The translations under genes were made by a program, and so were the position numbers. Below are positions 5,708 to 36,393 of a stretch of 42,475 bases of DNA, one piece after another. The notes under the pieces were generated by a model. That model was not told the origin of the DNA and ran no database searches. It saw only the letters and a program-made list of their open reading frames with translations. The stretch's first letter is position 1. Each line of letters begins with the position of its first letter. This stretch comes from a virus: positions 1-42,475 of the IMG/VR virus record IMGVR_UViG_3300025764_000008; one strand, written 5' to 3'.

Positions 5708-5787
5708 ACTGCCCAGTGGAGTGCGGACTATCCGCACACACTACCATGCTTCCGCCAGCACTTGCCCAAGTGCTGGCTTTGTTTTTC
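5708..5787 (+). ncRNA. candidate ~80-nt sRNA with anti-Shine-Dalgarno linker
   Basis: From the promoter the RNA would contain a perfect 7-bp hairpin (GTGCGGA 5721-5727 with TCCGCAC 5731-5737), a 17-nt single-stranded linker (5738-5754) and a terminator hairpin (5755-5776) with a U-rich tail. Linker bases 5742-5753 (TACCATGCTTCC) pair with GGAGGCATGGTA at 33183-33194, the ribosome-binding site and first start-codon base of the methyltransferase gene at 33194: 12 pairs, one of them G-U. Similar matches exist for the genes at 3056 and 32839. The layout is that of a trans-acting translational repressor; this is inference. Confidence 0.5.
5755..5787 (+). terminator. intrinsic terminator of the candidate sRNA
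   Basis: Stem CCAGCACTTG (5755-5764) with CAAGTGCTGG (5767-5776); the innermost pairs cannot all form, leaving about 9 bp and a 4-nt loop. It is followed by the U-rich run ctttgttttt. A 30-codon reading frame crosses it (ATG 5746) but has no ribosome-binding site. Confidence 0.7.
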
Positions 5788-5811
5788 ATCGGGCGTAGAG
5801 ACAAAACAATA

Positions 5812-5849
5812 GCCCCTCATTTGCCAACAGGCAAGTGAGGGGCTTTTTT
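5812..5849. terminator. bidirectional intrinsic terminator between early block and par genes
   Basis: 14-bp stem (5812-5825 with 5830-5843, one G-T pair) around the loop AACA, then six T on the plus side. On the minus strand the stem is followed by ATTGTTTTG, so it can also end the par transcript. It sits exactly between convergent operons. Confidence 0.9.
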
Positions 5850-13348: not shown

Positions 13349-13699
13349 CTATATCCTCGTTGGTTCTACAATCCTAATCGTCCACACCGGCCACGTGTAG
13401 CTGAGCGTCCCGTTAGTCGCCCTGACTTCCAGTGAGTAAAATCCCTCTGTAAGCAGAGTGCTGTTACAGATCGTGACCGTGCAACCTGTCGTGGTGTTCT
13501 GAACGGTGAGGGTGCATCTGCCCGCAGGCGCAGCACCGGGAACTTCTGCTTCTGTGATTGCCTCAGCAGTATCTCCCTGAGCCAACGTCGCTACGGTTGT
13601 CCACGGCCCGCCGGCGGTCAAGTCGAACACCACGCCATCCTTGGTTAAAGGACACGCCAGGGCATATCTGTCACCCCGTACAAATTTGAACTCAGCCAT
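13349..13699 (-). CDS. tail/appendage beta-domain protein
   Basis: 116 residues, all-beta pattern: KFVRGDRYALACPLTKDGVVFDLTAG at the start, then VTICNSTLLTEGFYSLEVRAT and a C-terminal strand WTIRIVEP. This resembles N-terminal domains of phage baseplate or upper-tail proteins (BppU-like or Ig-like), but only in general shape. Good site ggaggtatcca. It overlaps the repeat-protein gene by 8 bases and is followed by the inserted HNH gene. Confidence 0.65.
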   Translation of the reverse strand: MAEFKFVRGDRYALACPLTKDGVVFDLTAGGPWTTVATLAQGDTAEAITEAEVPGAAPAGRCTLTVQNTTTGCTVTICNSTLLTEGFYSLEVRATNGTLSYTWPVWTIRIVEPTRI

Positions 13700-14813
13700 T
13701 GGATACCTCCAAAACGGTTATCAAGTCGCGCGCCGACAGGCTGGTACTCAGATTGGCGGTTGGCAGAACGGTCACAATGTCATGTGCTTTCAGCGTCTTA
13801 TAGAAACTCCAGAACAGGGTACGGTAGACGGAAATCAGTTGTGCGGCAATCTGTTGTACGGACTTCCACGCGCTTGTTAGATACGCGGCAACGAAGGTCC
13901 GAGACCGATATGCACTGGTAAGCGCAGCCATGACCTGTCCAACCCATGCAACGGCTTTGTACGCCGACTGGACTGCGGCAGAAATAAACGCCCGAGTTTT
14001 GTATGCGGATATGGCGGTGGCCGAAGCAAGTTGCCGCGCTTTGTATGCCGTGATAATCTGCGCAGAGACAATCGCGTGAGCGGCATAAGCAGAAATCATC
14101 TGAACTGCCACGATGAACCGCGAGCGATAAGCGCTCACAACCTGCGCGACGATTTGCTGTTCAGACCGATAAGCACTGACGAGCGAGGCGATAACCTGCC
14201 CAAGCGGAGCAAGGACCTGATAGGCACTGATAAGGATTGTCGAGATGAACTCCTTTGCCTTGTATGCGCTCTCTAGTGTGGCATCGATGATATTGCGTAC
14301 CCTGAATGCAGAGATCGTCTGAGCGGCTATCGCCACACGGCTCTTAAACGCGCTAATCAGTTCAGCGCCCACATGTTGCACAGACCTGTACGCCGAAACG
14401 AGCGCGGCACTCACCTGTTGCGCGGATTTGTACGCAGAAATCAAGGTTGTGGCAATGACCGTATGAGCGGTGTAAGCAGAGATAGCCTGAGCTGTTGCTA
14501 TTGCCCGCGCCTTGTACGCTGAGATCAGTTCGGAGCTAATTGTGCCAACCATGCGGAAGGCCGAGATGATCTGTGAACTGATTTGCTGAATGCTTTGATA
14601 TGCCGAGATGATCTGAGCAGATGTGATAATCCTACTCTTGAACGCAGAGATCACCTGTGCCGCAATAACCACGCGGCTCTTGAACGCTGAAATGACTTGT
14701 GCGGCAATCACCGCCCGCGACTTGAACGCGGATATGACCTGAGCGGCGACTGCGGTAAGGGAAGCAGCCGCCGATTTCAGGAAACTATGTTTGCCGAACG
14801 AGTGTCCAAGCAT
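13692..14813 (-). CDS. 14-residue-repeat structural protein (SAY repeats)
   Basis: 373 residues, nearly all made of about 22 copies of a 14-residue unit with consensus xAQxISAYKSRxxI; two copies are extended by about three residues (APLGQVI, AWVGQVM). It is Ala/Ser/Ile-rich, almost without acidic residues, and basic. Fourteen residues equal two heptads or two solenoid strands, so a long coiled or solenoid rod is possible. The last ~50 residues (KTLKAHDIVTVLP onward) are not repeated. It lies among fibre genes, so a tail appendage is likely. No ribosome-binding site; coupled to the gene at 14819. Confidence 0.7.
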   Translation of the reverse strand: MLGHSFGKHSFLKSAAASLTAVAAQVISAFKSRAVIAAQVISAFKSRVVIAAQVISAFKSRIITSAQIISAYQSIQQISSQIISAFRMVGTISSELISAYKARAIATAQAISAYTAHTVIATTLISAYKSAQQVSAALVSAYRSVQHVGAELISAFKSRVAIAAQTISAFRVRNIIDATLESAYKAKEFISTILISAYQVLAPLGQVIASLVSAYRSEQQIVAQVVSAYRSRFIVAVQMISAYAAHAIVSAQIITAYKARQLASATAISAYKTRAFISAAVQSAYKAVAWVGQVMAALTSAYRSRTFVAAYLTSAWKSVQQIAAQLISVYRTLFWSFYKTLKAHDIVTVLPTANLSTSLSARDLITVLEVSNG

Positions 14814-29922: not shown

Positions 29923-30560
29923 ACCAGTGGTGTAATTCGGAAGGTGAAGAAAATAAGAAGAGAAGATTTGAAGAACAGAAAATTGTAGGATTTTTTCCGC
30001 TTGCCCCTGTCGACCGGGTGCCCCTGGGGCTTACACCCCCCCCCTGGCGTGCCTGGATCACCCCCGTTTACCCCTATCGCCGCTCCCCGACTACCCTTGC
30101 ATTTATATCGATACGCGTTGATGTGCATAAATGATGGTTATCGGAAGTCGAACAACCCACGCCAAGACGCTCGGACCTATTACAGTAATCAAGATTACCG
30201 TAGCACACGACACGGGCAACACAGAGCACAGAACACAGTCCACAACACATGATATAGGGAAAGTACACAGAAGAGATACCACAGGGGCAACGAAGGCGAA
30301 GCGTTGCATGTTTGCTGTACATCGCCCTATATAGTGTTGTCTACCGCCAGTTTAAGAAACTTTTTTCGCACCGTTTTACATTGTCCTATACATAGGTATG
30401 AAAAGCCCCTCAATCCCGCATCAATGCTGCATTCTTCTCTTTACCCATGCGACACGTGACGACATATGCCACTAGTCCTTGTTGTAGACTTGTTCTTCAG
30501 TCTTTTATGCCCTCTTTATACGGTAATAGTGATGATTTTTGACCCCTTTCTTCACATTGT
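29923..30560. other. gene-free divergent control region
   Basis: No convincing gene on either strand. 29990-30100 is C/G-rich with repeated CCCCTRT-like blocks. A palindrome CCTATACATAGG lies at 30385-30396. A weak minus-strand promoter could be GTTTAA (30350-30355) with TATATA (30328-30333), 16 bases apart. Short frames here have no ribosome-binding sites. Confidence 0.5.
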
Positions 30561-30611
30561 CGCTTGACATACTTTCATCACTTGCTATTCTACAGTCAGT
30601 AATACATCACT
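30527..30611. promoter_or_regulatory. three operator-like ATCACT/AGTGAT repeats around the early promoter
   Basis: AGTGATGA (30527-30534), TCATCACT (30575-30582) and ACATCACT (30604-30611). The second lies between the -35 and -10 of the early promoter and the third just after the start point; the first is inverted upstream. This is a typical arrangement for a phage repressor; the Cro-like gene at 37949 is one candidate binder. Confidence 0.5.
30564..30591 (+). promoter_or_regulatory. early promoter before the hammerhead leader
   Basis: Consensus TTGACA (30564-30569), 16 bases, extended -10 TGC-TATTCT (TATTCT 30586-30591). Transcription would start near 30598 and give a ~250-nt leader before the gene at 30850. 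Best promoter of the second early block. Confidence 0.75.
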
Positions 30612-30757
30612 ACCGCGCTTTCAAATAGCATCGATAGCCTGAGGCTACCAGAAGATGCGCCAAAGCAGCACCCAGGAGCGAGTATAGGTGGATGTCCGGC
30701 GCTCCTGACTGTTCTAAAACAAACCGCCATAGATTGAAGCTGTGGCGCTGTGGTTAT
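30598..30757 (+). ncRNA. structured leader released by the hammerhead
   Basis: Three hairpins lie between promoter and ribozyme: GCATC/GATGC (30628-30632 with 30654-30658) with inner TAGCC/GGCTA (30635-30647); CAGGAGCG/CGCTCCTG, 8 bp (30673-30680 with 30700-30707); CGCCATAG/CTGTGGCG with one U-G pair (30725-30732 with 30740-30747). Cleavage at 30808 would free this ~210-nt segment from the mRNA, so it may be a functional RNA. Confidence 0.45.
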
Positions 30758-30813
30758 ACTGCCTGATGAGGCTCTGAAGAGCCGAAACAAGGCACCTGGT
30801 GCCTTGTAGCAGT
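30758..30813 (+). ncRNA. type I hammerhead ribozyme
   Basis: All conserved core bases are present. Stem I ACTGC (30758-30762) with GCAGT (30809-30813); CTGATGA core 30763-30769; stem II GGCTC/GAGCC (30770-30774 with 30779-30783), loop TGAA; GAA core 30784-30786; stem III nine pairs from A30787-T30807, loop CTG; cleavage base A30808 (GUA). It opens at stem I, hence type I. Self-cleavage after 30808 would set the 5' end of the early mRNA 41 nt before the start codon at 30850. Confidence 0.93.
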
Positions 30814-30820
30814 GAGAACG

Positions 30821-30834
30821 TCCCTAGATAGGGA
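30821..30834 (+). promoter_or_regulatory. 5' stability-type hairpin before the ribosome-binding site
   Basis: TCCCTA (30821-30826) with TAGGGA (30829-30834), immediately followed by gaggagg. After ribozyme cleavage it would lie close to the new 5'-hydroxyl end and could protect the mRNA. Confidence 0.55.
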
Positions 30835-30849
30835 GAGGAGGCACGGGCA

Positions 30850-31062
30850 ATGGGCAGCACGATGGAATTGCTGAATGGGCAGTGGATCAAGGCTGTTTTG
30901 AACTACGATGGTGCCGGCGTGGAAAGAATCGAAGCAACGATGGAGAAGATCAAGATTCTTCCGTCCAAGCCTTGCAAATGGGAGAATACCAATACTTGCA
31001 GAGGCTGCATGGCCCCTGAAGCGGGCAAGTGCCCATCTATCGCTGTGGACGTGGCAGCGTGA
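30850..31062 (+). CDS. small Cys-containing early protein
   Basis: 70 residues; strong site gaggaggcacgggca. It has one Cys-rich patch (PCKWENTNTCRGCMAP with a later CPSI), a possible small zinc site, and ends VDVAA. First gene behind the hammerhead leader; its stop overlaps the GTG of the next membrane peptide. Family not recognised. First-gene position suggests an early host-takeover role (inference). Confidence 0.7.
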   Translation: MGSTMELLNGQWIKAVLNYDGAGVERIEATMEKIKILPSKPCKWENTNTCRGCMAPEAGKCPSIAVDVAA

Positions 31063-31763: not shown

Positions 31764-32282
31764 ATGAGACTTGGACAGCACTGTTCAGACGAAACAAAAG
31801 CAAAGATGTCTGCGGCGGCCAGGGGAAATAAGAGATCGCTGGGACATCATAATTCAGAAGAAACCCGAGCAAAGATGTCGGTGGCACAAAAGGGTAAGCC
31901 AAAACCGCATAAAGGAGTTCCGCACTCAGACGCAACGAAGGCAAAGCTATCTGCGATAAACATGGGCCTTAAGGCGTCTCCTGAAATGCGGGCTAACAAT
32001 TCCGTGGCGCATTGGAAGGGAGGCCCTGCGGTGTATCGCCGCAAGGCCAACGCTAAGCGTCGGGTTTTCGGTTATGTATGTCTCAACGCCACCTTTGCGG
32101 GCTGCCAAGGGCATCACGTAGACAACGAGCAGGTTATTTTTATGCCGAAAGAACTTCATCGTAGCATCTTCCATCGTCAGTCAGACGGTCGAGGCATGGC
32201 GCAGATGAACGCTCTCGCTTATGCTTTTATGCTTGAACAAAATGCAGACGTTGCAATTGCCGGAAGAGCACTCATTCTATGA
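31764..32282 (+). CDS. NUMOD3-HNH homing endonuclease A
   Basis: 172 residues. About four N-terminal NUMOD3 DNA-binding repeats (SDETKAKMSAAARG, SEETRAKMSVAQKG, SDATKAKLSAINMG and one degenerate, ending WKGG), then the HNH core RRVFGYVCLNATFAGCQGHHVDNEQVIFMPKELHRSIFHRQ. It would cut a target lacking the insertion so that the gene is copied by repair. Its translation is probably gated by the leader RNA. It shares its nuclease core with the genes at 12853 and 35710. Confidence 0.9.
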   Translation: MRLGQHCSDETKAKMSAAARGNKRSLGHHNSEETRAKMSVAQKGKPKPHKGVPHSDATKAKLSAINMGLKASPEMRANNSVAHWKGGPAVYRRKANAKRRVFGYVCLNATFAGCQGHHVDNEQVIFMPKELHRSIFHRQSDGRGMAQMNALAYAFMLEQNADVAIAGRALIL

Positions 32283-35634: not shown

Positions 35635-35709
35635 TTACCCGTCTGAAATCCAGACTCGCCTCTGGTGCTGCCACAATCAGAACAGGCGAGAAAGGCGAGT
35701 GTGAGACAA
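35616..35709 (+). ncRNA. structured RNA leader, copy B (nuclease-associated pseudoknot RNA)
   Basis: P1 GGCAGC (35616-35621) with GCTGCC (35667-35672); P2 GGGCGG (35624-35629) with CCGTCT (35639-35644, two G-U); P3 CCAG (35650-35653) with CTGG (35662-35665). The P3 loop ACTCGCCT (35654-35661) matches AGGCGAG at 35684-35690 and, with one more pair, AGGCGAGT at 35693-35700. The helicase stop codon lies in the P2 loop. ATG follows at 35710. Confidence 0.85.
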
Positions 35710-36393
35710 ATGGGTTATGGACATCCGCAGTCAGAAGAAACCAGAGCAAAAATATCTTTAGCGTGTACAGGGAAACCTGCATGGAATATGGGCATCTCGC
35801 CAACAATTGAGGTACGAGTGAAACTTTCTGCTGCATTAAGGGGAAGGCCTGCCCCAAATAAGGGCATTCCCATGACAGACGAACAAAAGGCGAGAATGTC
35901 TGCTGCGCATCAGAACCAGTCTTCTGAAACCAGAGCAAGGAACTCTGCGGGGCACCTTGGGAAGAAACATTCGCCCGAGACATGTGCAAAAATCTCCGCG
36001 GCAAAGATGGGGCACGAAGTTTCTCTTGAAACGCGGGCGGGTGTATCTGCGGCGCATAAAGGGAAACGCCTTTCTCTTGAGACAAGGGCGAAGATGTCTG
36101 CTGCGAATTGGAAGGGCGGTCCCAAAATATCTAGTGCCAAGAAGAATTCCAAGCGTCGCACTTTTGGATTTGTTGCCCTGAACTCGTGGTTTTCTGGTTG
36201 CGAAGGACATCACGTAGACAAAGAACGAGTTATATATCTTCCAAAAGCATTGCACCGAAGTGTTTATCATCGTCAGACTGATGCCCGTGGAATGGCTAAA
36301 ATGAATGCAATCGCATACAACTGGCTATTCAAGCAGGAAGTCGAAACAGTAATGATGGCAAAGGAGGCTACAAATGTTCAAGAGGTTGCTTGA
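35710..36393 (+). CDS. NUMOD3-HNH homing endonuclease B
   Basis: Start MGYGHPQSEETRAK at 35710, at the same place relative to the RNA as in copy A; the frame open from 35665 runs through the RNA. 227 residues with about seven NUMOD3 repeats (SEETRAKISLACTGK, TIEVRVKLSAALRG, TDEQKARMSAAHQ, SSETRARNSAGHLGK, SPETCAKISAAKMG, SLETRAGVSAAHKGK, SLETRAKMSAANWKGG), then RRTFGFVALNSWFSGCEGHHVDKERVIYLPKALHRSVYHRQ. More repeats than copy A, so probably a longer recognition site. Confidence 0.9.
   Translation: MGYGHPQSEETRAKISLACTGKPAWNMGISPTIEVRVKLSAALRGRPAPNKGIPMTDEQKARMSAAHQNQSSETRARNSAGHLGKKHSPETCAKISAAKMGHEVSLETRAGVSAAHKGKRLSLETRAKMSAANWKGGPKISSAKKNSKRRTFGFVALNSWFSGCEGHHVDKERVIYLPKALHRSVYHRQTDARGMAKMNAIAYNWLFKQEVETVMMAKEATNVQEVA

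Follow-up and report, generated by a model that had tools for sequence, protein, structure and literature searches.

What does a hammerhead ribozyme do directly in front of the first gene of a phage early operon? This question is raised by positions 30757-30814 of IMG/VR virus record IMGVR_UViG_3300025764_000008, of which the whole stretch of 42,475 nucleotides (hereafter the window) was analysed. The window makes up a separate virus record, from an uncultured virus of bacteria, and a circular genome fits, since the record ends join in frame. Relatives in IMG/VR (given L numbers here) comprise an identical contig (L001/L002) and diverged ones, with terminases at 68-92% identity, most of them fragments. 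No relative was found by blastn against cultured phages, and no host genome by a terminase profile search.

The segment 30757-30814 (+) forms a type I hammerhead ribozyme that is complete in sequence; it is predicted to cut between A30808 and G30809. The catalytic core strands are CUGAUGA (C3 to A9, 30763-30769, +) and GAA (G12 to A14, 30784-30786, +), and the consensus CUGANGA...GAA...NUH with its A15.1-U16.1 pair is found as CUGAUGA, GAAA and GUA, where H17 is A30808. Around this core are three helices of 6, 5 and 9 pairs, with stem I open, as in type I. Stem I (30758-30762/30809-30813) joins ACUGC to GCAGU by 5 Watson-Crick pairs, with the U30757.G30814 wobble as the sixth. Stem II (30770-30774/30779-30783) is GGCUC-UGAA-GAGCC, with 5 bp, and stem III (30787-30795/30799-30807) is ACAAGGCAC-CUG-GUGCCUUGU, with 9 bp and A15.1-U16.1 as the closing pair. 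Beyond a small internal loop of stem I, GUU 30753-30755 is able to pair with AAC 30817-30819 in the predicted fold. Both the stem I internal loop and a UGAA/AGAA loop II, candidate elements of a possible tertiary contact between stem I and loop II, are present in these hammerheads. In the predicted fold of the presumed precursor (30598-30848), mean pair probabilities are 0.95, 0.99 and 0.99 for stems I, II and III. This is the single hammerhead motif in the whole window, its early operon included.

In terms of chance, the core alone is expected 0.01 times per shuffled window, and the full motif, with at least 5 pairs in every stem, appeared in none of 300 shuffled windows on either strand. At the gathering score, Rfam returns no match to the window hammerhead; the best match is sub-threshold, to Hammerhead_3, with 26.5 bits against a gathering score of 48.5 (E = 0.0077). 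Canonical copies from the relatives likewise fall below the gathering score, so the silence of Rfam reflects the sensitivity of the model and not a missing defining feature. Across nine related copies 97.7% of cells are paired and 11 of 19 pairs changed on both sides, which 0 of 500 shuffles reach, and sliding the partners in this alignment lowers pairing to 23-50%. These counts exclude a MAFFT alignment of all 18 hammerheads, where stems II and III are misaligned. The compensatory changes are found in stems II and III; in L003, stem III goes from ACAAGGCAC/GUGCCUUGU to ACAGUCCCA/UGGGGCUGU with all nine pairs retained. The core is invariant in the nine copies except at the free position 7. A covariance model (R2) gives the window hammerhead 80.9 bits (E 2e-19), this copy being part of the model; E-values of R2, and of model R1 below, are rough, and sequences used for building match by construction. 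The comparative pattern indicates that the hammerhead, with its conserved stems, is not a chance occurrence.

Upstream, a promoter-like site TTGACA-N16-TATTCT (30564-30591, +) matches the consensus at 10 of 12 positions and would place a start near 30598. The form TTGnnn-N16-TAnnnT lies 35-47 nt before helix A of the leader RNA described below in 6 of 8 phages (the window, L010, L011, L018, L019 and L020); L003 and L008 have weaker forms of it with N17. The similar place of the site in six of the eight makes a start near 30598 likely. No operator palindrome overlaps 30564-30591. Farther upstream, GTGATGATTTT and TTCACATTGTC (window 30530-30565) are candidate regulator sites, and about half of the relatives have them too, ahead of the promoter-like site. 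A further combination, TTGAAG-N15-TATACT (30734-30760), coincides in part with helix C and with stem I (5' strand). It is unlikely to be a promoter: the spacer is 15, the promoter scan does not report it, its -10 is not kept in L008 and L010, and helix C accounts for part of its -35. The site may serve as a sigma-dependent pause site or as a weak promoter bypassing the ribozyme; RNA from such a promoter, if used, would start inside the ribozyme and so be unable to self-cut.

Downstream, the predicted cleavage leaves an mRNA leader of 41 nt (30809-30849, +) before the ATG at 30850, containing a hairpin UCCCU-AGAU-AGGGA (30821-30834, +) and the Shine-Dalgarno sequence (SD) GGAGG (30837-30841, +). 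The CCC/GGG of the hairpin is kept in the window, L003, L008 and L010. For the orthologous hammerhead, HHR1, the predicted cut is 40-41 nt from the start codon in L003, L008, L010 and L019, and 60 nt in L018. A second copy of the hairpin with its SD (ACGTCCCTAAATAGGGAGAGGAGG), without hammerhead, is found in L008 at about 1486-1452(-) before another early gene.

The gene that follows, X (30850-31062, +), encodes a 70-aa small protein with four cysteines in the pattern CxxxxxxxCxxCxxxxxxC. It has no Pfam match and a marginal match to phrog_1254 (E 0.0096). Homologs are present in L003 and L008 (53-54% identity) and, by sequence, in L018 and L019, with a hammerhead just upstream in each. The + strand early/replication operon extends from 30850 across the record ends to about 5664 (~17 kb), and strong terminator-like hairpins at 5754-5844 mark its end. 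A NUMOD3 motif protein is encoded at 31764-32282, with similar repeats and a similar ORF at 35665-36393; both are probably homing-endonuclease-type genes inside the early operon. Among the structural genes, a 373-aa ORF at 13692-14813 (-) is made up largely of short degenerate repeats (AAQVISAFKSR-like).

These results agree with an earlier note on this DNA, which had described a type I hammerhead with all core bases, a cut at 30808/30809 and a 41-nt leader with a hairpin and ribosome-binding site; the core, the three stems and the coordinates of cut site, leader, hairpin and SD are as it gave them. The place it assigned to the ribozyme, ahead of the first gene of the early operon, also stands, and this position is conserved in six relatives. 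Its "operator-controlled" promoter is not supported: the promoter-like TTGACA-16-TATTCT exists, yet no operator palindrome overlaps it.

The note had also overlooked a structured RNA directly upstream of the hammerhead. This leader RNA of ~150 nt (30604-30753, +) has a helix P1 (30613-30616/30750-30753) that closes three hairpins, A (30628-30658), B (30673-30707) and C (30725-30747). For the leader RNA alone, in eight phages, 93.3% of cells are paired and 11 pairs changed on both sides (0 of 500 shuffles; slid controls 27-44%). Leader and hammerhead together, in five phages, give 16 covarying pairs and 96.1% pairing, compared with 30-47% in slid controls. Covariance model R1 scores 132-166 bits in the eight phages from which it was built. 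The arms vary in sequence; conservation is seen in the loops and in the internal loop of B. A reading of the upstream inverted repeats as DNA operators was rejected, the arms changing together and the loops staying, as in RNA. There is no match to any Rfam family, and pattern scans matched this phage group alone, with none in genome contigs. The leader RNA is a new, undescribed RNA family in this phage group.

The leader RNA adjoins the hammerhead in seven phages and stands alone in one. In most relatives it ends a few nucleotides before the ribozyme, with extra linking bases in L008 and L010. The exception is L020, where the promoter-like site and the leader RNA are kept and there is no hammerhead; leader RNA and hammerhead are thus separable modules, and the predicted cleavage is not essential in L020. 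At the hammerhead site of L020 (7900-8030, -), a long hairpin is followed by GCCGAAACAGCGC, perhaps a remnant. Another ribozyme class at this site was considered and rejected: only the long hairpin was seen, with chance miRNA matches.

HHR1 is present in L003, L008, L010, L011, L018, L019 and the near-identical contig of L021, with the core intact in all copies. Within the first 1.5-2 kb of the early operon, L019 has four hammerheads, L003, L008 and L018 three each, and L010 two. The hammerheads of the relatives are encoded on the sense strand, each downstream of a stop codon and ahead of the following SD; many start right at that stop codon. All 31 tabulated hammerheads share the orientation of the genes beside them, and in 28 the cut is followed within 17-114 nt by an SD and start codon, mostly at 24-70 nt; an automatic stop-to-hammerhead distance of 11 was not used, as it often picks the UGA within the core. 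Most other hammerheads in these phages come after protein genes, not after leader RNA. As for gene X, in L003, L008, L018 and L019 it is preceded by a hammerhead other than HHR1. The HHR1 leader stands directly before X in the window; in L003 and L008 other genes and a second hammerhead intervene, which points to rearranged cassettes.

Some intergenic hammerheads carry the core CCGANGA (U4C): L003 3817-3875(-), L008 975-1038(-), L010 805-866(+) and L018 606-676(-). All their stems are kept, or nearly so, by compensatory change. According to PMC3088659, U4C slows cleavage in vitro yet suffices in a viroid; these copies are possibly slow, tuned ribozymes. Hammerheads occur in the same kind of place in unrelated phages, L007 (seven copies) and L050-L056. 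In L007 (542-4552(-), contig IMGVR_UViG_3300031366_000001) the seven are on one strand within ~4 kb, with a start codon mostly 24-50 nt downstream of the predicted cut (94 nt in one case). In L050 (around 10833) and in the core matches of L051 (-), the UGA inside the CUGAUGA core appears to be the stop codon of the preceding gene.

The reading we prefer, with a probability of about 0.72, is that the window hammerhead serves as a constitutive mRNA-processing site whose cut would detach the early mRNA from the leader RNA. It builds on what the sequences show, namely the architecture, its compensatory conservation, the position and sense orientation, and the conserved leader RNA. RNA processing is favoured by the common position of the hammerheads, in sense, after one gene and before the next ribosome-binding site, and the many between-gene copies in the relatives indicate that it is constitutive. 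The earlier note had suggested control of phage gene expression; for a switch we see no evidence, and those same between-gene copies point to constitutive processing.

We infer the cellular side of this reading, that is, the start site, cleavage in the cell, the effects on stability and translation and the role of the leader RNA. RNA polymerase would start near 30598 and transcribe first the structured leader RNA of ~150 nt and next the hammerhead; the latter would fold and cut itself after A30808 before or during transcription of gene X. The upstream product would be ~211 nt long, with the leader RNA, the ribozyme core and a 2',3'-cyclic phosphate end. The early mRNA would then begin with 5'-OH-GCAGU, followed by the short hairpin and a strong ribosome-binding site, and the cut would take the bulky leader off the translated RNA. 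RppH does not act on a 5'-OH end, and neither does RNase E in its 5'-phosphate-dependent mode. With its uniform and structured 5'-OH end, the mRNA should be protected from decay enzymes for which a 5' phosphate is required. In the relatives, the extra hammerheads would cut between cistrons and turn one early transcript into gene-sized mRNAs; this does not apply to the rest of the window's early operon, since it has a single hammerhead. The inner part of stem I (CUGC/GCAG, four pairs) does not vary in the orthologous hammerheads or in several paralogous ones (copies of the window, L018 and L019) while stems II and III vary freely, and simple processing does not explain this invariance.

Other readings place the purpose elsewhere. 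One takes the upstream product as the point of the cut: the hammerhead would mature a stable non-coding RNA of ~211 nt with a defined 3' end, and the mRNA end would be a by-product. The upstream RNA is indeed strongly structured and covarying, and in most relatives only a few nucleotides lie between it and the ribozyme. However, in L020 it persists without a hammerhead, and most other hammerheads here follow protein genes, so we regard this as unlikely. L020 bears equally on the idea of a natural aptazyme, in which the leader RNA would sense a ligand or protein and switch the hammerhead, and with it the early operon. Adjacency in seven phages and the highly conserved internal loop of hairpin B, as expected of an aptamer, are consistent with this. 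Nevertheless, the modules occur apart (the leader alone in L020, hammerheads without leader elsewhere), the length of the link varies, with extra bases in L008 and L010, and the hammerhead is predicted to fold by itself. Since each module occurs without the other, such a ligand-controlled switch, although possible, is without support, and we hold it very unlikely. Least credible, and hardly to be expected at all, is a relic or chance motif without cleavage: PMC3088659 describes inactive hammerhead-like sequences in phages, but covariation, a core intact in all HHR1 copies and 0 of 300 shuffles speak against it here.

A further proposal, compatible with the processing reading, concerns the leader RNA itself. 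By analogy it might be a put-like element for processive antitermination, with the hammerhead freeing the mRNA from polymerase-bound RNA. Its location, immediately after the promoter-like site that opens a ~17-kb early operon, is that of putL in HK022, and the cut would be harmless to such action, as put activity needs no RNA tether (PMC9378689). On the other hand, the fold differs, with three hairpins in a closed junction of ~150 nt instead of two stem-loops of ~70 nt, and no early terminator that would need bypass is seen in the operon; we consider the proposal tentative and on the improbable side. More speculatively still, the leader could belong to a novel phage RNA class whose target is the early operon's transcription complex, by put-like antitermination or something similar, with a built-in hammerhead that cuts the translated mRNA loose. 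If true, "act on polymerase, then release message" would be a two-part leader.

For the role of phage hammerheads, a question that dates back to 2011, these phages offer natural comparisons: one kind of early leader that has a hammerhead in seven phages and lacks it in one, canonical or U4C cores at conserved intergenic sites, and a gene X that keeps a preceding hammerhead while ribozyme and neighbouring genes change. Furthermore, the covarying leader RNA is found at the very start of the early operon, where transcription-reprogramming RNAs are known.

Among known systems, glmS is a ribozyme that cleaves itself within a bacterial mRNA's 5' leader; it uses a metabolite cofactor and lowers expression. 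The window hammerhead shares the 5'-leader position and, by prediction only, the self-cleavage; its fold differs, and no sign of ligand dependence is seen here. HK022 putRNA (PMC9378689) and the leader RNA are both structured RNAs directly behind an early phage promoter (a promoter-like site here). The parallel concerns the leader RNA alone, for which putRNA is a possible analogue. The two are set apart by architecture, putRNA having two stem-loops in ~70 nt and the leader RNA three hairpins in ~150 nt.

The closest precedents are those of Perreault et al. 2011 (PMC3088659), who describe hammerhead clusters flanking prophage genes in Clostridium scindens, Azorhizobium caulinodans and Agrobacterium tumefaciens (ardA). 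These were proposed to cut long transcripts into gene-sized mRNAs, and they were shown to cleave in vitro, one set also in E. coli. The earlier note was right that hammerheads are known in prophages. Like the clusters, the hammerheads here are in sense, intergenic and flanked by phage genes, with several copies in the relatives. The genes are different, and the window has one copy and the relatives two to four. A conserved structured RNA stands beside the ribozyme here, and in the text consulted none is described for the clusters. The same source reports that the hammerhead of haloviruses HF1/HF2 (HHphage) precedes the first gene of an early polycistronic transcript, whose mapped 5' end is within 3 nt of the predicted cut. 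The placement before the first early gene is common to both and was already known from HF1/HF2; with the prophage clusters and HF1/HF2, the central idea of the earlier note had already been published in kind (PMC3088659). The halovirus ribozyme differs in its inserted, salt-dependent core and in lying 13 nt before the start codon, whereas here the core is canonical and the predicted cut is 41 nt before it. For a hammerhead coupled to a conserved structured leader RNA, no description was found in the open-access literature, and later work in closed journals may exist. In comparison with these systems, then, the window ribozyme itself belongs to a known kind, and its coupling to a structured leader RNA is what seems to be new.
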